This document shows, one piece after another, positions 27,749-37,104 of a DNA stretch of 64,000 bases. Each line of letters opens with the position of its first letter. Within the stretch, counting starts at the first letter, position 1. Under the pieces are notes generated by a model. The model worked only from the letters and a program-made list of their open reading frames with translations, was not told the origin of the DNA and ran no database searches. Source of the stretch: Gluconacetobacter diazotrophicus PA1 5 (lineage in GTDB: Bacteria; Pseudomonadota; Alphaproteobacteria; Acetobacterales; Acetobacteraceae); contig NC_011365.1 of assembly GCF_000021325.1 (NCBI RefSeq), forward strand, positions 3,314,001-3,378,000, in the 5' to 3' direction. The position numbers and the translations under genes were made by a program.

Positions 27749-29198
27749 CAGGCTGTCGGGTTGGGGTACCTGGCTCTGGCGATCTGCGGTAAGCTTTCAG
27801 GATGAGCAGCTTCATTCCGTTTGATCGATCGCAGCCGTATCTTCTGCCGCCGGATCTGAAGTCATGGCTGCCGTCGGACGATGTGGCGCATTTCATCGTG
27901 GCGGCGGTAGAGCGGGTGCCGTTGAGGGCATTTTCCGTTCCTGTGCGGACTGGCGGCAAGGCGCAGTATCATCCGCGCCTGATGCTGGCGCTGCTGATTT
28001 ACGCCTATGCGAACGGCGTGTTCTCATCGCGTCGGATCGAACGGGCGACATATCGTGATATCGGTATGCGCTTTGTGGCGGCGAACCTGCATCCTGACCA
28101 TGACACGATCGCGACGTTCCGGCGCGGCAACCGCACGGCGATCGAGGCAGCGTTCATGCATGTACTCCTGCTGGCACGCGAGACGGGACTGGTGCGGCTT
28201 GGCACGGTGTCGATCGACGGCACGAAGATCGATGCCAATGCCTCGAAATACCGTTCCATTCGTTATGATCGCGCGAAAGAGCTGCGCGAGAAACTGGCCA
28301 CCGATATCTCCACCCTGATGGAACGGGCAGAGGCGGCGGATACAACCGATGTGGATCATCAGGCGTTGCCGGAGGAACTGGCCCGGCGGGAGGCTCTGAA
28401 GGCAAAGCTGGATGAAGCCTGTGCGCGACTGGAGGCGGAAGCCCGCGAGCAGGCCAAGACCGCCCGACCAGAATATGAGCGCAAGAAGGCAGCTTTTGAT
28501 GCGAAGCGGGGACGGCGCGGTCGGCCGCCGAAAGAACCGGACGATGAACCGCCACCAGACCGGCAGATCAACCTGACCGATCCGGACAGCAAGCTGATGC
28601 GCCGCTCCGACGCGCATGAATACCGGCAAGCCTACAATGCCCAGGCCGTGGTTTGTGCCGAGGGCAGCCAGTTGATCTTGGAAAATGGCGTCGTTGCGAC
28701 GACGGCGGACGCGCCCAGCTTCGCCGCCACCATCCTGGGTATGGAGGAGAGGATCGGCCTGCCACGAACCGTCCTCGCCGACACGGGTTTCGCCAGCGGC
28801 AAAGCCGTCGAAACGTTGCAGGCCAGCGGCGTGGACCCGCTGGTCGCCATCGGACGCCCTGTGAATCGGCGCCCTTATGACTTCCGGCCAGAACCGCCAC
28901 CCAGGGAGCCGCGCCGGATCACCGAGCCCTGGCGCCTGGAAATGAAGGCCAGGCTGCAACAGAACCCGGCAAAAGCCCTTTACGCCTTACGCAAGCAGAC
29001 CGTCGAACCGGTCTTCGGTATCATCAAGAGCGCCATGGGCTTCACCCGTTTCCATCTCCGTGGCCTCCCCAACGTCGCAACAGAATGGACGCTCGTCGCC
29101 CTCGCATATAATTGCCGTAGGATCACGCGACTGACGGCCGCATAAACGCCGTCGTCGCCATCACTCATCACTACGGCAGCGCCCAATCCGACAGCCTG
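27749..29198 (+). mobile_element. IS1182-type insertion sequence, complete
   Basis: 1,450 bp with terminal inverted repeats starting CAGGCTGTCGGGTTGGG (27749-27765), matched by the complement at 29182-29198 with one mismatch. It is flanked by a TTAG direct repeat at 27745-27748 and 29199-29202, which fits a YTAR target of IS5-related elements. One uninterrupted transposase gene fills it. Intact ends, target duplication and open frame suggest a recent insertion. It sits between pepA and holC without breaking either. Confidence 0.9.
27802..29145 (+). CDS. IS1182 family transposase (IS5 superfamily, DDE)
   Basis: 447 residues beginning MSSFIPFDRSQPYLLPPDLK. The N-terminal domain (DUF772-like, about 40-120) includes YHPRLMLALLIYAYANGVFS. 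The first catalytic Asp lies in GTVSIDGTKIDANASKYRS, the second probably in TVLADTGFASGKAVE, and the C-terminal E region is KQTVEPVFGIIKSAMGF. A lysine/arginine-rich insert (about 160-235) is usual for the group. Intact, so the element could be active. Confidence 0.93.
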   Translation: MSSFIPFDRSQPYLLPPDLKSWLPSDDVAHFIVAAVERVPLRAFSVPVRTGGKAQYHPRLMLALLIYAYANGVFSSRRIERATYRDIGMRFVAANLHPDHDTIATFRRGNRTAIEAAFMHVLLLARETGLVRLGTVSIDGTKIDANASKYRSIRYDRAKELREKLATDISTLMERAEAADTTDVDHQALPEELARREALKAKLDEACARLEAEAREQAKTARPEYERKKAAFDAKRGRRGRPPKEPDDEPPPDRQINLTDPDSKLMRRSDAHEYRQAYNAQAVVCAEGSQLILENGVVATTADAPSFAATILGMEERIGLPRTVLADTGFASGKAVETLQASGVDPLVAIGRPVNRRPYDFRPEPPPREPRRITEPWRLEMKARLQQNPAKALYALRKQTVEPVFGIIKSAMGFTRFHLRGLPNVATEWTLVALAYNCRRITRLTAA

Positions 29199-29716: not shown

Positions 29717-30571
29717 ATGATGGGTTCCGTCACATTGGCCGACGGCACGCGGCTTCCCGCCCTGGGCATGGGCACCTGGGCGCTCGGCGACCGTGCCGAC
29801 CGGCGCGCGCAGGAGATCGAGAGCCTGCGAGGCGGGCTGGATCAGGGGCTGCGGCTGATCGATACCGCGGAGATGTATGGCAGCGGGCGATCCGAAAGCC
29901 TGGTCGGCGAGGCGATCGCCGGACGCCGGGACGAGGTCTACCTGGTCACGAAGATCGTGCCCTCCAACGCCTCGCGCCGGCAGGTGCCGGAACATTGCCG
30001 GGCCTCGCTGCGGCGGCTGGGGACGGACCGGATCGACCTGTACCTGCTGCACTGGCAGGGCGCCGTGCCGCTGGAGGAGACGGTCGAGGCGTTCGAGCGG
30101 CTGAAGGACGAGGGGCTGATCGGGGCCTGGGGCGTATCGAACTTCGATGCCGGCGACATGGACACGCTGGCCCACGTCACGGGGGGCGTGCACTGCGCCG
30201 CCAACCAGGTTCTCTACAGCCTGGATTATCGCGGGGTGGAATTCGACCTGCTGGAGGCCGACCGGCGCCGGCATGTCCTGACCATGGCCTATTCCCCGCT
30301 GGGGCAGGGGGGCGACCTGCTGCGCGCGCCGGTGCTGGCGCGGATCGCGGCGCGGCACGAAACCACGCTGGGTCCGGCGACCCCGGCGCAGGTGGCGCTG
30401 GCCTGGGTGCTGCGCCAGCCCAATCTGGTGGCGATTCCCAAGGCCGGCAGCCCGGCGCATCAGCGTGAAAACATCGCGGCGGCCGAACTGGCGCTGAGTG
30501 CCGAGGACCTGGCCGCGATCGACCGCTCGATCCCGCCGCCGGCACGCAAGGTTCCCCTCGCCATGATCTGA
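29717..30571 (+). CDS. Aldo/keto reductase
   Basis: 284 residues, NADPH-dependent (alpha/beta)8 barrel. The catalytic tetrad is visible: Asp and Tyr in IDTAEMYGSGRSE (about 52-64), Lys in YLVTKIVP, His in LYLLHWQG. The coenzyme-binding motif near the C-terminus is AIPKAGSPAHQREN. Substrate unknown; the closest family type is the 2,5-diketo-gluconate reductase/YvgN-like group. It is 34 bp after holC and 26 bp before the hydrogenase-related operon, on the same strand. Confidence 0.9.
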   Translation: MMGSVTLADGTRLPALGMGTWALGDRADRRAQEIESLRGGLDQGLRLIDTAEMYGSGRSESLVGEAIAGRRDEVYLVTKIVPSNASRRQVPEHCRASLRRLGTDRIDLYLLHWQGAVPLEETVEAFERLKDEGLIGAWGVSNFDAGDMDTLAHVTGGVHCAANQVLYSLDYRGVEFDLLEADRRRHVLTMAYSPLGQGGDLLRAPVLARIAARHETTLGPATPAQVALAWVLRQPNLVAIPKAGSPAHQRENIAAAELALSAEDLAAIDRSIPPPARKVPLAMI

Positions 30572-30597
30572 GCGGCGTGGTTTGATCGTGCCGTGAT

Positions 30598-32430
30598 TTG
30601 GCCCGTGATTCGGGGATTGGGCGCATCCTTCCGCTTTTTCTGACTCTTGTCCTGTCGGGGTTGCTGCTCGCCAGCCTGACGACGCTGCCCGTGGGCCGTC
30701 ATGCGCTGCGGGCCGGATGGGGGCTGGCCCTGCTGGCGGGGCTGGCGCTGGCGTGCTTTCCGGCCAGCGGGGACGCGCGGTTCGGCGCGGCCATCCTGCA
30801 TGTCGATGCCATGTCCCTGCCGTTCCTGCTGGTCCTGACGCTGTTCGGCCTGATGTCCGGCGCGCGGGATGCCGGGCTGGCCTGCGCCGCCCTGACGGTC
30901 GCGACCGGCAATCCGGTCCTGTTCTGCGTCGGTGCCGCCGCGCTGGTGGTTCTGCCGCGCGGCCCCGGGGGCGGCCCCAGAGGGGCCCCCGCAAGCGGAT
31001 CATGGGGCGTGGCGGCGGTGGCGCTGGGGACGGCCCTGCTGTCGGGCGGGGACGCGTGGCGCCTGTCGGTTCTGCCCGGGCCCGTGCTGGTCGCGGCCGC
31101 GGCGCTGATGGGCCTGTCGCCGCGTCCGCTGTCCGGCGCGCGGCATGTCGCGCCCGCGTCGGTCCGGGACCTGGCGGGGCTGGTCGCGGGGTGCTGCCTG
31201 GCGGTGCGGATGCTGGTGGACTGGCCCGCCGCCCCGGTCGGGGCGGCGTGGGGCGGGGGTGTCGCGGCCGTGGGGCTGCTGGCGGCGCTGGCGGGGGGGG
31301 CACGGGCCCTGACGGCGCCCGATGCCGCGCGGGTGCTGTCCGGGCTGCTGGCCGCATGGGGCGGGCTGGGGCTGCTGCTGGTCGGGCTGGTGGTGGTGGG
31401 GCGCGCGGATGACCTGCCGCTGCTGGCGCTGGGGGCGTTTCGCGCGTTGGTGCTGCTGCTGGGCGGGGTCGGCATGGCGATGCTGGCGGTGCTGCTGGTC
31501 CTGCGGGACATCGCGGCGGCGGCGGGGCCGCTGGCCCTGGTCCGGGCGGGCGGGCTGGCCGCGCTGATGCCGCGCGCGTCCGGGGTGCTGGTCCTGGCGC
31601 TGGCGGTGGGGTGCGGCCTGCCGCCGCTGGCCGGCTTCGCCGTGCTCTGGCTGGTGGTGCACTCCCTGCTGGCCCTGCCGCGGGCGGAGGGACTGGCGGG
31701 GGAAATCGCGCCCCTGCTGGCCCTGGGCGGGGTGGGGCTGGTGTCCGGGCTGATGATGCTGGCCACGCTGCGGCTGGTGGCCTGCGTGGTGCTGGGCCGG
31801 CCGCGCACGCCGCGTGCCGCCGGCGCGGTGGATTGCGCCGCCGCCGCGCTACGTGTGCCCCTGGCCTGCCTGGGTGTTGCGGGGGCGCTGTCCCTGGTGC
31901 CGGGGCTGTGGCTGTGGCTGACGCGCGCGGCGGGGTGGCAGGCGGCCGGACTGGTGCCCGGACTGGCGCCCAGACTGGCGCGCATGGTTCCGTCGGGTGC
32001 GCGACCGCCCTGGCTGGGCTTGGTCGCGCCGGGCGGGGATGGCGTGTTCTATCCGGCCGGGATCGTGCTGCTTCTGCTGCTGGCGGGGGGGCTGGTCCTG
32101 GCGGCGGCGCGTCTGGCCGGCATCCCGGCATCCCGTCCGGTCGCGGCCTGGACCGAGGGTGCGCCCCCTTCGCCGCCCTGGATGCCGTTCGGCGATGCCG
32201 CGACGCAGGCCGGGCCGGCGCTGTTCGTCAGCCAGATCGACGCGATCCTGGACGCCACGCGGCCGGCGCGGGGCGTGGTACGGCGGGGCGTGCGGGCCGG
32301 GCGCTGGTGCCGCCGATGGGGCCGGGTGCTGACGGAATGGGCGGCGGCGCAGGCGGCGCGCCATGCGATGATCCTGGTCCTGCTGTGGATCGCGGTCGCG
32401 GCGCTGGCGCGGATGTGGGGCCGGCCATGA
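30598..32430 (+). CDS. HyfB-like antiporter-type membrane subunit of an Ehr-like complex
   Basis: 610 residues from a TTG start at 30598, which is uncertain. Almost wholly hydrophobic, with 13 or more probable transmembrane helices, as in the proton-pumping-type subunits of hydrogenase-4 (HyfB) and complex I (NuoL/N). The stretch ARHVAPASVRDLAGLVAG (181-198) resembles the helix 7-8 loop of that family (AHPxAPSxVSALMSG). HyfB is usually about 670 residues and this copy looks short at the N-terminus. I see no lysine in the whole protein, although family members use lysines in the proton path. The stop overlaps the next ATG (ATGA). First of six coupled genes. Confidence 0.65.
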   Translation: MARDSGIGRILPLFLTLVLSGLLLASLTTLPVGRHALRAGWGLALLAGLALACFPASGDARFGAAILHVDAMSLPFLLVLTLFGLMSGARDAGLACAALTVATGNPVLFCVGAAALVVLPRGPGGGPRGAPASGSWGVAAVALGTALLSGGDAWRLSVLPGPVLVAAAALMGLSPRPLSGARHVAPASVRDLAGLVAGCCLAVRMLVDWPAAPVGAAWGGGVAAVGLLAALAGGARALTAPDAARVLSGLLAAWGGLGLLLVGLVVVGRADDLPLLALGAFRALVLLLGGVGMAMLAVLLVLRDIAAAAGPLALVRAGGLAALMPRASGVLVLALAVGCGLPPLAGFAVLWLVVHSLLALPRAEGLAGEIAPLLALGGVGLVSGLMMLATLRLVACVVLGRPRTPRAAGAVDCAAAALRVPLACLGVAGALSLVPGLWLWLTRAAGWQAAGLVPGLAPRLARMVPSGARPPWLGLVAPGGDGVFYPAGIVLLLLLAGGLVLAAARLAGIPASRPVAAWTEGAPPSPPWMPFGDAATQAGPALFVSQIDAILDATRPARGVVRRGVRAGRWCRRWGRVLTEWAAAQAARHAMILVLLWIAVAALARMWGRP

Positions 32431-33356
32431 TCGGGCTGCTGCTGGGGTGCGTGCTGCTGGCCGTGCATGTGACGATGATGGTGGCGCTGGCGCCGGTCGT
32501 GCGCGGTGTGGTGGCGGCGGGCGCGGCGCGGCTGGGCGGCGATCGGCCCATGCCGGTGCGGATGCGCTGGCGCCGGCTTCTGGCGCTGGCGCGGCAGCGG
32601 GGACTGCGCGCGGCCGGCATGGCGGACGTCATGCCGCCCCTGGCGCTGGCGGCTTCCGTGGCGGCGTGCGCGCTGGTGCCGTCCTTCGCGCTGGGGCTGC
32701 CGGGTTCCGGCCTGTCGGACCTGCTGCTGGTCGCGGGCCTGCTGGTGCTGGTCCGGCTGGCGTTGCTGGGGCCGGCCCTGGCGGCGGGCCAGGCGCGGTC
32801 CGGCCGTGCGGCGGCGGCCACCGGCGCCGCGCTGGCGGTGATGCAGACGGTCTTTCCCCTGGTGGTGGCGGGGGCGGTGCTGGCGACGGGCCATGGCGGA
32901 ATCGATGCCATCCTGACCCGCATGCATGACCCGGACATGGACGGGGCACGGACGCCGCTGATCCTGGCCGCCGTGGCGCTGCTGCTGGCGGGCCCGGATA
33001 TCGGGCCGGGCGACGATGCCCGGGCGGCGGACCTGCTGGCCGATCTGGGCGGCCGGGACCGGGCGGCGCTGGAACTGGCGCGGGACATGGCGCTGCTGGC
33101 CTGGATCACGCTGGCGGGGGACCTTGCCTGGCCCGGCGGCCTGGTGCCCGTGGACGGCGGGGCGGCCACGCCGCTGTCCCTGCTGGGGGCGGTGGCGGCG
33201 TGGCTGGCGCGGGTCGGGGTGGCGTGTGCCGGCATCGTGGCCGTGCGGGTGGTGGTGCTGGCCCCGGTCCGGGCACAGCGGGCCCGGCTGGTCCTGTCGG
33301 TGCTGTTCGCGCTGCTGGCGGTGGTGGTCCTGTTCGCGGGGCGGGAGTTCGGGTGA
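32427..33356 (+). CDS. HyfC/HycD (NuoH)-like membrane subunit
   Basis: 309 residues with about eight hydrophobic helices. Position after the HyfB-like gene and size match HyfC/HycD, the subunit that links the membrane arm to the peripheral redox arm. Recognisable remnants are the early basic loop (VRMRWRRLLALARQRGLRA) and the acidic segment ADLLADLGGRDRAALELARD, corresponding to the Glu/Asp-rich loop facing the redox module. Divergent from canonical members and without any lysine. Starts on the 4-bp overlap ATGA with the upstream gene. Confidence 0.65.
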   Translation: MIGLLLGCVLLAVHVTMMVALAPVVRGVVAAGAARLGGDRPMPVRMRWRRLLALARQRGLRAAGMADVMPPLALAASVAACALVPSFALGLPGSGLSDLLLVAGLLVLVRLALLGPALAAGQARSGRAAAATGAALAVMQTVFPLVVAGAVLATGHGGIDAILTRMHDPDMDGARTPLILAAVALLLAGPDIGPGDDARAADLLADLGGRDRAALELARDMALLAWITLAGDLAWPGGLVPVDGGAATPLSLLGAVAAWLARVGVACAGIVAVRVVVLAPVRAQRARLVLSVLFALLAVVVLFAGREFG

Positions 33357-33910
33357 TGCTGTCGCTGCTGCTGGGGGTGCTGATCGTGGTGTCGGTCGTC
33401 CTGTCCGGGGGGCGCGGGGCGGCGTTGCTGTGGCACGGGGGGTTGGTGGCCCTGGCGCTGCTGGCCGCGGCATCGGACGCGGCGGCACCGCTGCTTCCGT
33501 GCCTGGCGGCCGTATGCGTGCTGGCGGTGGTGCTGCCCCTGGCCTGGGGCCTGGCGCGGCTGGAGGACGATCCGCCCACCGCGCGGGAGCGCGCGGTGGG
33601 TGTCGGCGCGGGGCTGATGCTGACGGTCCTGGCGGTTGTCGCGGTGCCGCGCGGGCTGGTCGACATGGCGACGCGACCGGGTTTGATCGCCGCGCTGACG
33701 GTCATTCTGTGCGGCGTGCTGGCGGCGGCCGTGCGGCGGTCGGTGGTGGGACAATGCGCGGGTCTGGCGGCGGCGGTGAACGGACTGATGCTGCTGGCGG
33801 GCCTGTCCGGACGGGGGGGCATGCTGGCTGGTGTGGTGGTGCTGCAGGCGGCGCTGATGCTGGTGGCGTTCGTCTGCCTGCGCCGGATCGCGTGGAGGAG
33901 CATGGAATGA
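33356..33910 (+). CDS. HyfE-like small membrane subunit
   Basis: 184 residues with five to six predicted helices. Size and location fit HyfE, whose C-terminal part is NuoK-like. The start ATG shares one base with the previous stop (TGATG). One acidic residue pair lies in a loop (LEDDPPTARERAV, about 73-85). Sequence identity to the family is hard to see by eye, so the call rests mainly on operon position. No lysine. Confidence 0.55.
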   Translation: MLSLLLGVLIVVSVVLSGGRGAALLWHGGLVALALLAAASDAAAPLLPCLAAVCVLAVVLPLAWGLARLEDDPPTARERAVGVGAGLMLTVLAVVAVPRGLVDMATRPGLIAALTVILCGVLAAAVRRSVVGQCAGLAAAVNGLMLLAGLSGRGGMLAGVVVLQAALMLVAFVCLRRIAWRSME

Positions 33911-35064
33911 ATGCCGCGCCGCTGCTGATGCCGCTGGCGCTGTGCTGGCCCTTCCTGTCGATGGCGATGCTGGCGGCCTGTCCGCGACCCTCGGTCCGCG
34001 CCGCTTCGATCGGCCTGGCGGCGGTCGGGCTGGTGCTGGCCGTCCTGGCCGCCTGCGTGGGCGGGGCATGGCCGGCGACGCCCTTCGCCGTGCCGTCCGG
34101 GCTGTTGCGCGTGCTGCTGCCCCTGCCGCTGCTGGCGCTGGTCCTGGTCATGCTGTCGCCGTCGCCAGGGGCGTTCATGGGGGTGTCCCCAGGGACGGTC
34201 ACGGGGGCGTCGCGGGGGACGATGGCGCTGATGCACGGGCTGGCCGGCGGGTCGGCCGTGGCGACGGCGTGCGCGGACCCGCTATCCGGCGCGGTGGCGG
34301 TCGGCGGGGTGGCGATGCTGGCGGCGCTGGCCACCGCCACCACACGCGGCGCGGCGCGGCTGGGCTGGGACGCGTTCCGCCTCAACCTGTCCGGGATTCT
34401 GCTGGCGGTGCCGGGGGCGGTGCTGCTGGTCGCGACGCCGGACGCGGCGGGGCGGCTGGACGGCCTGGGCGGTGTGCTGCTGACCGTGGGGCTGGGCACG
34501 GTGGCGGGGCTGGGGCCCGCGGCACCGGTCGTCATGGTGGCCGGGGACGCCCCGGCCGCCATGGCGCTGGCACCGGTCATGACTGCCATTCCCGTGCTGC
34601 GGCACCTGGTGGCGGGGCCGGACGGGACAGGGACGATGCTGCTGGGCATCGTGACCCTCTGGCTGATGGTCCTGCCGATGCGGGACGCGTCCCCCGCGCG
34701 GGCGGCCCGGCTGGCGCTGGGGGGCATGATCGGCCTGGCGGCGGTGGCAGCGGGGGCCGGCGGCCGGTCCGGGATGGCGGGAATGGTGGCGTTGCTGGCA
34801 TCGGCCGCCCTGTCGGCGCCGCTGGGCGTGCGCGGTGCGGCGTGGTCGCTGCGTCCGCCCTTCCTGCCCTTCGGGGGCCTGGTGCTGACCCTGGTCGCGG
34901 TGTGTGACGCGGCCCCCCTGCTTCTGGTGCCGCTGGTTGCGGCCGTGGTGGCGGGGCGCGGGTCCATCCGTGCCGCGCCCCCGGGCGAGGAGCCGGTGGC
35001 ATGGCTGGTGACCGGGTTGCTGCTGGCCGGCATGGCGGTGCTGGTCGGGCTGGTGGTGCGATGA
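33907..35064 (+). CDS. HyfF-like antiporter-type membrane subunit, shortened
   Basis: 385 residues of mostly hydrophobic helices; canonical HyfF is about 500-530. Position (fourth gene, between HyfE- and HyfG-like) and character support HyfF. The segment LGPAAPVVMVAGDAPAAMAL (about 201-220) may be the worn-down AHPxAPSxVSA loop of this family. The usual lysine-bearing helices cannot be found because the protein contains no lysine. Overlaps both neighbours by ATGA. Confidence 0.55.
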   Translation: MNAAPLLMPLALCWPFLSMAMLAACPRPSVRAASIGLAAVGLVLAVLAACVGGAWPATPFAVPSGLLRVLLPLPLLALVLVMLSPSPGAFMGVSPGTVTGASRGTMALMHGLAGGSAVATACADPLSGAVAVGGVAMLAALATATTRGAARLGWDAFRLNLSGILLAVPGAVLLVATPDAAGRLDGLGGVLLTVGLGTVAGLGPAAPVVMVAGDAPAAMALAPVMTAIPVLRHLVAGPDGTGTMLLGIVTLWLMVLPMRDASPARAARLALGGMIGLAAVAAGAGGRSGMAGMVALLASAALSAPLGVRGAAWSLRPPFLPFGGLVLTLVAVCDAAPLLLVPLVAAVVAGRGSIRAAPPGEEPVAWLVTGLLLAGMAVLVGLVVR

Positions 35065-36593
35065 CGCCGAACGGACCCTTCGCGCCCGGTGGCGGCGCGG
35101 CCGCGCTGATCCGGCGGGGCGAGGCCGAGGCCGGGGCATGGCGGTTCCGGCTGGAGGAAGAGGGCTGGCGCGACCTGGTCGCGACGCTGGCCCGCGATCC
35201 GCTGCCCTTCGTGGGGCTGTGGGCCGACGGACAGGACGTGCATGCCCTGTTCCTGGAGGGCGGCGAGCGGGTGCTGGTCGCCAGCGTGGCCCCCTATGGC
35301 GGCCGTTACCTGGGCCTGTCCGGCGTGCGCCCGGCGGCGTCGCTGCCGGAACGGTGCGTACACGACCTGTGGGGGTTCGAGGCGATGGAGGCGCGCGATA
35401 CGCGCCCCTGGCTGGATCATGGGGTCTGGACGGCGACCTGGCCGCTGGGTCCCCGGCCCGGCCCGGTATCCTGGCCGCCCGATCCGCCGGAATTCCGGCC
35501 CCAGCCCGGCGGAGGGACCATCCTGGGTATCGGGCCGGCCGACGGCGGGCACCACACGCCGGGCCATCTGCGTCTGGCGCTGGGGGGGCGCGATACGGTC
35601 GGGGGGGCGGAATGGCGGCTGGGCTATGCCCATCGCGGCGTGATGGCGCGGCTGTGCGGGCTGGATGCCCCGGCGGCGGTGCGCCTGGCCGGGCGGGCGG
35701 CGGCCGGGGCGTCGGTCGCCCATCAATCCGCCCTGTGCCGGGCGATCGAGGCCGCGTCCGACAGCATGGTCGGCACCGGAACCGAGCGCTGCCGCGTGCT
35801 GCTGGCGGAAATCGAGCGGGTGGCGACCCATCTGCATGACGTCGCCCGCACCGCCCGGGCAGCCGGGGCGACGGCGCTGGCGGCGGAATGCGAATACCTG
35901 CGCGAGAGCGTCATGGATCTGTGCGGCCGGATGTTCGGGCATCGGCTGCTGATGGATCTGGTGCGGCCGGAGGGCCCGGACGGGCATGCCGGGGCCGGCG
36001 ATGCCGAGGACGGAGCCGCGATCGCGGCCGTGGCCCGACAGGTGGCGGACCTGGTGCGGGGCCGCATGCGTGTCGTCGGGCGGTGCCGGGACTGGCCCGG
36101 CCTGGAGGCCCGGGTGGTGGGGCGCGGCGTGCTGGGCGAGCACACGGCCCGGATGCTGGGCGTCGGCGGGGTGGCCGGCCGGGCCTCGGCGCGGGAGGAA
36201 GACCTGCGCCGACTGGTGCCGGGCTATCGCCTGGGCTGGCTGGATACCGGGGTGCGCCGCGCCGGTGACGTGGCGGCGCGGATCGACCTGCGCCTGGCCG
36301 AGATCGGCGGCAGCGTCCGCATCCTGGAATCCGCCGGCGCGGACGGGCCGTTGCCCGGAACCGGGACGCCGCCCCGCCGCGACGGCGAGGGTGTGGGCTG
36401 TGCCGAAGGGCCGCGCGGCGCGGTGTGGTACTGGGTGAGGATGGAAGGCGGCGCGGTGCGGGCGGCCCATGTGCGTGATCCGGCGTTGGCACATGTCGCG
36501 GCGCTGGAGCATGTGCTAGCGGGCGCGGATGCCGATGACGTGGCGATGATCGTCCGGTCGTTCGGCCTGTCCGCCGCCGCGGCGGATTTGTAG
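35061..36593 (+). CDS. HyfG/HycE-like large subunit without nickel-binding cysteines
   Basis: 510 residues. Residues 1-150 correspond to the NuoC-like domain (ERCVHDLWGFEAMEARDTRP near 100-120 is typical), and 150-510 to the NuoD/hydrogenase large-subunit domain. The classic large-subunit sequence ERxCGxCxxAHSxAFCxAxE aligns with GRAAAGASVAHQSALCRAIE (211-230). Both cysteines (214 and 217) are alanine. The C-terminal end (IVRSFGLSAAAADL) has no DPCxxC either. It therefore cannot hold a [NiFe] centre and groups with energy-converting-hydrogenase-related (Ehr) proteins. HRGVMARL, VATHLHDVARTA and the following core still identify the fold. Confidence 0.8.
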   Translation: MTPNGPFAPGGGAAALIRRGEAEAGAWRFRLEEEGWRDLVATLARDPLPFVGLWADGQDVHALFLEGGERVLVASVAPYGGRYLGLSGVRPAASLPERCVHDLWGFEAMEARDTRPWLDHGVWTATWPLGPRPGPVSWPPDPPEFRPQPGGGTILGIGPADGGHHTPGHLRLALGGRDTVGGAEWRLGYAHRGVMARLCGLDAPAAVRLAGRAAAGASVAHQSALCRAIEAASDSMVGTGTERCRVLLAEIERVATHLHDVARTARAAGATALAAECEYLRESVMDLCGRMFGHRLLMDLVRPEGPDGHAGAGDAEDGAAIAAVARQVADLVRGRMRVVGRCRDWPGLEARVVGRGVLGEHTARMLGVGGVAGRASAREEDLRRLVPGYRLGWLDTGVRRAGDVAARIDLRLAEIGGSVRILESAGADGPLPGTGTPPRRDGEGVGCAEGPRGAVWYWVRMEGGAVRAAHVRDPALAHVAALEHVLAGADADDVAMIVRSFGLSAAAADL

Positions 36594-36603
36594 GGAGGGT
36601 ACC

Positions 36604-37104
36604 ATGGCCCTGTTGCGCGCGATCCTGGCGGGCCGGCGCCCGGCCGTTCGCCTGCCCGTCACGGGCGCGCGGCCGCTGGCGGTCTTTCATGTCGAGACCG
36701 GAGGGTGCGAGGGATGCGCGATGGAGGTCGCGGCGCTGGACGGGGCGGCCTACGGCCTGCCGGCCACCGGGATCGCGTTCGTGGCGACGCCGCGCCTGGC
36801 GGAGGTGCTGCTGGTGACGGGTCCGCTGACGCGGGCCATGGCGCCGGTGCTGGAAGCCGCCTGGCATGCCATGCCCGAGCCTCGGGCGCTGGTCGCGGTC
36901 GGGGCCTGCGCGATCGATGGCGGCCCGTTTCCCGAAAATTACGCCGTGCTGGGCGGGCTGGAAGGCCGCGCCACGCTGGATATGACGGTGCCGGGCTGCC
37001 CGCCCTCGCCGGCGGCGATCCTGGCCGGGCTGGCGCGGGTGCTGGAGCGCGACGTCGCCGGTCAGGCCGGGGTGGCGGAATCCGGGCTGTCGTCCTCGGT
37101 CTGA
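36604..37104 (+). CDS. HyfI/NuoB-like [4Fe-4S] small subunit
   Basis: 166 residues. All four cluster ligands are present: C35 and C38 in ETGGCEGCAMEV, C102 in AVGACAIDGGPF, C132 in VPGCPPSP. The CxxC spacing is that of hydrogenase small subunits, not the adjacent cysteines of complex I NuoB. A strong GGAGGG precedes the ATG, the only gene of the operon with a clear gap (10 bp). The 3' end overlaps the convergent pssA gene by 43 bp. No lysine. It would pass electrons to or from the large subunit. Confidence 0.88.
   Translation: MALLRAILAGRRPAVRLPVTGARPLAVFHVETGGCEGCAMEVAALDGAAYGLPATGIAFVATPRLAEVLLVTGPLTRAMAPVLEAAWHAMPEPRALVAVGACAIDGGPFPENYAVLGGLEGRATLDMTVPGCPPSPAAILAGLARVLERDVAGQAGVAESGLSSSV

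Follow-up and report, generated by a model that had tools for sequence, protein, structure and literature searches.

The stretch of DNA analysed here, 64,000 nucleotides from Gluconacetobacter diazotrophicus (the window), carries at 30598-37104 on the plus strand six open reading frames (ORFs) that encode, in this order, relatives of HyfB, HyfC, HyfE, HyfF, HyfG and HyfI. An earlier note, made from the letters alone, had described them as a hydrogenase-4-like complex. We think it somewhat probable, if barely beyond an even chance, that the operon encodes a non-pumping, non-hydrogenase, membrane-anchored [4Fe-4S] module, which was derived from an energy-converting-hydrogenase-related (Ehr) complex, dismantled stepwise in the Acetobacteraceae and kept. 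This stripped form is a variant within the known Ehr kind, and its novelty lies in the loss of the proton path and of the large-subunit pocket, not in the loss of the nickel cysteines. The alignments show no nickel site, no conserved ionisable proton path in HyfB and HyfC, a changed HyfF motif and no complex-I quinone tyrosine, with the HyfG core conserved and the four cysteines of the HyfI cluster site kept. The stripped proteins form one clade, their descent follows the bacteria, and purifying selection is strongest on HyfI and HyfG. A literature search that lacked most subscription journals found no published description of the stripped form.

Family assignment and the nickel site

In a Pfam search, Complex1_49kDa matched HyfG (9.6e-17) and Oxidored_q6 matched HyfI (2e-25), and no family matched HyfB, HyfC, HyfE or HyfF. 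The NCBIfam match of HyfB (Table 1) lies far under the curated cut-off. When profiles were aligned by hhalign, HyfC of the stripped lineage matched HyfC of ordinary Ehr complexes at 99.4% (E 6e-22) and HyfE matched its ordinary counterpart at 75% (E 2.6e-5), the HyfE and HyfF matches being weaker than that of HyfC. The structure model of HyfG (predicted local distance difference test score, pLDDT, 86) had HycE (7z0s_E) as its best PDB match, with a template-modelling (TM) score of 0.84, followed by NuoCD, and the best PDB family match of HyfI was HycG (7z0s_G, 5e-42). Large and small subunits of the group 4 type are thus found with antiporter-like membrane subunits in one operon, as in Ehr complexes. 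No electron-input protein of the HyfA or HyfH kind, no NuoE, NuoF or NuoG and no ferredoxin-type gene is among the six, and no ferredoxin-type gene was seen by eye among the recurring neighbours listed.

The large subunit reads R-A-A-A-G-A at residues 212-217, where HycE of E. coli has R-V-C-G-I-C, and it ends in ...SFGLSAAAADL, where HycE has ...DPCYSCTD... and a further tail; HyfG has no tail beyond this point. Our recheck and the HycE alignment confirmed what the earlier note had read at both places: RxCGxC and DPCxxC, by which [NiFe] group 4 hydrogenases are recognised, are absent from HyfG. HypD (PF01924), which alone of the Hyp maturation genes was searched for, was absent from the window genome (G000) and from 25 of the 26 genomes searched; the control search was positive in 4 of 14 known genomes, including E. 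coli. Since there are no nickel cysteine pairs and no HypD in the genome, the complex is not a hydrogenase, in agreement with the earlier note, and the [NiFe]-hydrogenase reading was rejected. The nearest solved relative is formate hydrogenlyase, which might suggest a working [NiFe]-hydrogenase with displaced ligands; given that HyfG lacks both cysteine pairs and the maturation-protease tail and that HypD is missing from G000, we regard this as hardly conceivable.

Ehr complexes are defined, in two reports, by the absence of both nickel-binding CxxC pairs (PMC6349859, PMC10284858), and both are absent from HyfG. In our alignment, none of 59 ordinary Ehr large subunits had a nickel-pair cysteine at either site. 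The first site read S-G-D in 57 of them and S-G-V-G-S in two, and the places of the second-site cysteines read S-G in 55, T-G in three and A-G in one. The loss of the cysteine pair, which the earlier note had put first, is therefore real but is a mark of the family rather than of the Gluconacetobacter locus. Four stripped rows (L047, L051, L072 and L073) have a lone cysteine at the first nickel site.

Three known systems can be compared with the operon. It shares with the six-gene Ehr complexes of Alphaproteobacteria (HyfB-C-E-F-G-I) the gene order, the missing nickel cysteines, the small-subunit cysteines and a nested place in the tree, whereas the ordinary members keep the proton-path residues of HyfB and HyfC and the S-G-D of HyfG, which the stripped clade has lost. 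Formate hydrogenlyase and hydrogenase-4 (E. coli Hyc and Hyf; PDB 7z0s) have the same subunit types and the fold indicated by the HycE and HycG matches, but the stripped complex is without their CxxC pairs, maturation tail, HypD, ferredoxin-type subunits and proton-path residues. Respiratory complex I (NuoB, C, D, H, K and L/N) has homologous subunits, an N2-type cluster site and an arginine, Nqo4 R84, with which R212 of HyfG aligns; unlike it, the stripped complex has no quinone tyrosine, acidic loop or antiporter lysines, and the window genome has separate Nuo genes. The NADH module and the NuoD quinone tyrosine that characterise complex I are both missing, as the six genes include no NuoE, NuoF or NuoG and A215 of HyfG takes the position of Nqo4 Y87. 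R84 and Y87 are residues with functional roles in Nqo4.

Proton-path residues and the order of loss

The function of Ehr complexes is given as unknown or as no more than suspected in three reports (PMC6349859, PMC10284858, PMC7894505), the suspicion being that they are redox complexes with a charge-translocating membrane arm (PMC6349859). In the fetched loci, seven ionisable positions of HyfB and thirteen positions of HyfC were compared. The HyfB positions correspond to Glu, Lys, Lys, His, His, Lys and Glu of E. coli HyfB, the first three of which we take to be the Glu of transmembrane helix 5 and the Lys residues of helices 7 and 8. Ordinary Ehr HyfB read EKKHHKE in 46 of 50 rows and EN[RK]HHKE in the other four, two of which (L116 and L128) are likely to be HyfF sequences misassigned as HyfB where a contig ends. 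None of the seven residues was kept in any of the 22 non-duplicate rows of the acetic-acid-bacteria clade; the first position was gapped in every one of these rows and the second in 21, this stretch being either deleted or too diverged to align. In the 29 clade rows of HyfC, the motif residues Q, Y, R and D were kept in 0, 0, 20 and 2 rows, respectively, and the loop residues E, R, P, D, A, H, E, E and E in 6, 0, 13, 11, 0, 0, 0, 5 and 2. In HyfF, the motif YGTKxGLxPLHAW (YGTKxGLAPLHAW in ordinary rows) reads LGTVAGLGPAAPV in the window protein, and the Lys of A-A-W-K is replaced by Asp.

Charged or histidine positions that are invariant in ordinary Ehr were kept at shares of 0.67 in HyfG, 0.37 in HyfI, 0.16 in HyfC and 0.14 in HyfB, with the Gluconacetobacter rows thinned to four. 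Lysine is absent from all six window proteins, as against 1.1-2.5% in ordinary subunits (14 loci). The G+C of the operon (about 0.76) favours Arg over Lys, yet Glu and His positions were lost as well. HyfB, HyfE and HyfF are shorter than in ordinary Ehr; in Gluconobacter the HyfB frame has 412-415 amino acids (aa). The membrane genes are present and hydrophobic even in small genomes. The motif tables and the retention shares support the earlier note's view that this set has been eroded further than the usual Ehr complexes. In this test, made on sequence only, the residues expected of a charge-translocating membrane arm were all absent at the seven HyfB positions and few were left at the HyfC positions, and the charge translocation suspected of Ehr complexes is thus not supported in the stripped clade, though its ancestry is Ehr. 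Because the nickel, quinone and proton positions have been lost, the complex would be unable to act as a hydrogenase or as a complex-I-type pump: H2 would be neither produced nor consumed, and protons would not be pumped in the known way.

The HyfG tree comprised 84 of 115 HyfG rows, the excluded ones being E. coli NuoCD, seven duplicates, three further Gluconacetobacter rows and 20 ordinary rows. Loci from the HyfI scan were the best 80 of 455 confirmed, and seven loci (L064-L069 and L077), which duplicate genomes already fetched, were omitted from the counts. In this tree, 37 stripped rows formed one clade with support of 100/100, and it nested within ordinary Acetobacteraceae Ehr via intermediates, in agreement with the earlier placement among Ehr-type complexes. 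The six intermediates (L032, L078, L080, L085 of Rhodopila, L088 and L103) branched just below the stripped clade, and ordinary Acetobacteraceae branched below those. The places of two long branches (L028 and L051) are unsure, and 11 rows have unusual composition. The intermediates have lost the HyfB residues, except for one His in L032, and most of the HyfC loop, and they keep the Asp of the HyfG S-G-D motif, which was present in 6/6 intermediates and in 0/40 rows of the stripped clade. Most simply, these alignments suggest a single loss of the membrane proton path, followed by a single loss of the HyfG Asp. As a separate observation, a single frame of 515-569 aa covers the places of HyfE and HyfF in the intermediates L078, L080 and L085, as if the two were fused.

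The same positions bear on whether the complex transfers electrons between some donor and quinone as ordinary Ehr complexes may do, with no proton pumping. The [4Fe-4S] site and R212 are kept, and Ehr complexes are suspected to be redox complexes (PMC6349859). However, the Nqo4 Y87 position is occupied by Ala, although ordinary Ehr has Gly and so no Tyr there either, the HyfG Asp is lost, HyfC has lost QxYRD and most of its acidic loop, and no ferredoxin-type gene was among the six or, by eye, among the recurring neighbours listed. We consider this explanation unlikely. What holds of the earlier proposal of an electron-transfer complex is one predicted [4Fe-4S] site; there is no electron-input gene, and the nickel, quinone and proton positions are changed.

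Cluster site, selection and distribution

HyfI has exactly four cysteines, C35, C38, C102 and C132, as previously noted, and their spacing, CxxC...C...C, is that of hydrogenase small subunits and not the CC of NuoB. The four cysteines would form an N2-type cluster site. Counted without thinning, the clade has 45 HyfI rows, including 12 from Gluconacetobacter. All four cysteines were present in 43 rows; one row (L044) read S-C-C-C and one was cut by a contig end. A loss of HyfI in G013 and G020, suspected since none lies beside HyfG, was rejected because HyfI is on another contig in each.

Each of the 11 other Gluconacetobacter loci that were fetched has all six frames open and arranged as in the window, with HyfI 1.1 kb after HyfG in L025. 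The ratio of nonsynonymous to synonymous substitution (dN/dS) was estimated by the Nei-Gojobori method from 12 Gluconacetobacter sequences per gene, using pairs with dS of 0.02-1. The median was lowest for HyfI (0.205), followed by HyfG (0.317), HyfE (0.349), HyfF (0.436), HyfB (0.460) and HyfC (0.544); the flanking genes gave 0.231 (aldo/keto reductase), 0.232 (PepA), 0.181 (PssA), 0.120 (Psd) and 0.143 (GloB). The extreme G+C probably compresses dS and inflates these ratios. The earlier note had named dN/dS near 1 or frameshifts in relatives as signs that would refute its reading, and neither was found in other Gluconacetobacter species.

Of 12 further Gluconacetobacter genomes searched, 11 encode a HyfG of 69-73% identity, which argues against a chance find, and the twelfth is a draft of 1310 contigs. 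The stripped clade spans Gluconacetobacter, Acetobacter, Komagataeibacter, Novacetimonas, Gluconobacter and unnamed genera. Searched against 249 genomes of the family, the HyfG profile matched 212 at E 1e-60 or better and 32 more weakly, with no match in five. Matches at or beyond this cut-off are taken as Ehr type because NuoD of complex I appears to score about 1e-36 to 1e-55; the cut-off was set after the list had been viewed, and the genomes were counted by hand; the 212 mix ordinary, intermediate and stripped forms and include G057, which has HypD and may hold a real hydrogenase. In that 1.9 Mb genome, HypD lies about 8 kb from a HyfI-like gene of 40% identity (G057:C1:745442-755212), perhaps part of a real [NiFe]-hydrogenase.

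Among 26 genomes tested, eight of 1.9-2.6 Mb (G060, G081, G088, G097, G128, G145, G157 and G162) each had a single match of the HyfG type, a single match of the HyfI type and none to NuoF, indicating that the complex is independent of complex I there. The four of these that were fetched (G060, G081, G088 and G128; L060-L063) all belong to the stripped clade. This bears on a possible role as a structural helper of complex I. According to PMC10715153, Acetobacteraceae keep a deranged bc1 complex, which is explained in this way, and a deranged COX1-like protein; the likeness is that these bacteria retain respiratory proteins whose cofactor ligands have been lost, whereas here the small-subunit cluster site is kept and the proton path and large-subunit pocket are lost. 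Neither 'hyf' nor 'ehr' appears in that paper's main text. With HyfG and HyfI present and NuoF absent in 8 of 26 genomes, the helper role was rejected for those genomes, and we judge it very improbable overall.

Operon layout, neighbours and possible roles

The gene order given in the earlier note held, as did the overlap at four of the five junctions (1-4 bases), but HyfG and HyfI are separated by 10 bases (Table 1). Over window positions 30001-36000, G+C is 0.755-0.766, AT skew -0.29 to -0.45 and GC skew 0.14 to 0.19; such a strong strand skew across the operon is attributed to the T-rich second codon positions expected in membrane proteins. Upstream, a transposase-like frame (447 aa, by eye; window 27802-29145) lies between pepA and holC and is identical in a second assembly, G240.

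Table 1 Features of the operon in the window
Feature	Position	Strand	Remarks
HyfB-like antiporter-type membrane subunit	30598..32430	+	610 aa; TTG start uncertain; NCBIfam hydrogenase 4 subunit B, 2.6e-10
HyfC/HycD (NuoH-like) membrane subunit	32427..33356	+	309 aa; QxYRD motif changed, acidic loop shortened; from hhalign and motif table
HyfE-like (NuoK-like) membrane subunit	33356..33910	+	184 aa; from hhalign and operon position
HyfF-like antiporter-type membrane subunit	33907..35064	+	385 aa (ordinary about 483 aa)
HyfG-like large subunit, NuoC+NuoD layout	35061..36593	+	510 aa; R-A-A-A-G-A at 212-217, no DPCxxC
Codons of HyfG residues 212-217 (first nickel cysteine pair site in hydrogenases)	35694..35711	+	computed from 35061
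HyfI/NuoB-like small subunit	36604..37104	+	166 aa; C35, C38, C102 and C132 for one predicted [4Fe-4S] cluster

The block pepA-holC-aldo/keto reductase-[hyf]-pssA-psd (names assigned by eye) is found repeatedly in acetic acid bacteria, apparently as inherited synteny. In one branch (L045, L052, L053, L056, L057, L061 and L063), HyfI lies near a gene family that is of the NrtR type in L056, where this NAD regulator (Pfam NrtR_WHD, 7.9e-25) overlaps HyfI by four bases; nadA, checked by Pfam in L053 alone, and genes resembling nadB and nadC are present in L045, L053, L056 and L061-L063. We treat the proximity of NrtR and nad genes to HyfI as a lead only. At ordinary Ehr loci, a small regulator of about 100 aa, by eye an XRE-type helix-turn-helix protein, adjoins the operon in 14 of 38 (for example L112:1849-2163, L083 and L121). 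Besides it, no family was common to at least 4 of these 38 loci, of which about 2 kb upstream was covered and three are intermediates.

Several observations weigh against a maintained [4Fe-4S] module. We found no partner gene recurring next to the operon that would name a function. The charged invariants of HyfI are less well kept than those of HyfG, the first HyfI cysteine is replaced by Ser in G013 (L044), and HyfG is separated from HyfI in both G013 and G020. The sequence homology of HyfF is weak, and its fold model was built on an alignment containing ordinary HyfF, a possible bias. Selection on the membrane subunits is relaxed, with dN/dS still below 1, and both HyfG and HyfI are missing from at least one complete genome of the family, the 2.0-Mb G093. 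Finally, in G240 (L151), apparently the same strain, HyfB, HyfC and HyfG carry frame-changing differences, and the six genes differ from the window by 89 substitutions. The flanking genes of that assembly have no gaps and far fewer substitutions (PepA, transposase and GloB 0; HolC and aldo/keto reductase 1; PssA 2; Psd 4; a methyltransferase-like gene 7). We take the window genome to be CP001189 and G240 to be AM889285. The two PAl 5 assemblies are in conflict, and an optical map shows misassemblies in AM889285, with errors or divergence both possible (PMC3035290). The differences are likely to reflect sequencing error or base-calling trouble in an operon of 76% G+C.

Some of these observations would also be expected if the operon were a slowly decaying relic, that is, a functionless Ehr operon caught before its loss: the relaxed dN/dS of HyfB, HyfC, HyfE and HyfF (0.35-0.54), the frame-changing differences in the second assembly, the absence from some lineages of the family such as G093 and the shortening of HyfB, HyfE and HyfF. 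Against such decay stand the frames open in all other loci of the genus, the single clade across several genera, the operon kept in genomes of 1.9-2.6 Mb, a dN/dS of HyfI like that of the flanking genes and the retained HyfI cysteines, and we regard a relic as improbable. We consider a redox-responsive scaffold or relay likelier than a dead relic, given that the frames stay open and the cluster site is retained in several genera and even in small genomes.

If the operon does encode a maintained membrane-anchored module, HyfG and HyfI would sit together on a hydrophobic anchor, and the HyfI cysteines and the HyfG core, as the most conserved parts, probably position one [4Fe-4S] cluster at the membrane. 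The remaining cluster may serve as a redox-responsive scaffold or as a one-electron relay at the membrane for some partner, for example in sensing the state of the quinone pool or in holding a partner respiratory enzyme. Any single specific role is less likely than the overall reading, for which we see about an even chance. It is quite possible, though less likely than not, and we propose it tentatively, that the operon is a selectively kept 'pseudo-complex', in which the proton path and then the pocket were discarded, the N2-type iron-sulfur module and the full set of membrane genes were kept, and the fold would now work not as a pump but as a redox sensor or scaffold. To our knowledge, no such conversion of a pump into a sensor or scaffold has been described.

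Discussions of complex I and its relatives usually imply that pumping is the reason for their retention. In the series from ordinary through intermediate to stripped forms, loss of the proton path would have preceded that of the pocket, with the iron-sulfur subunit remaining under selection, and the intermediates survive in living bacteria. The stripped form is found in genera used in industry and genetics (Gluconobacter, Komagataeibacter and Acetobacter), and the series makes two questions testable: what Ehr complexes do, and what the fold is good for without a pump.

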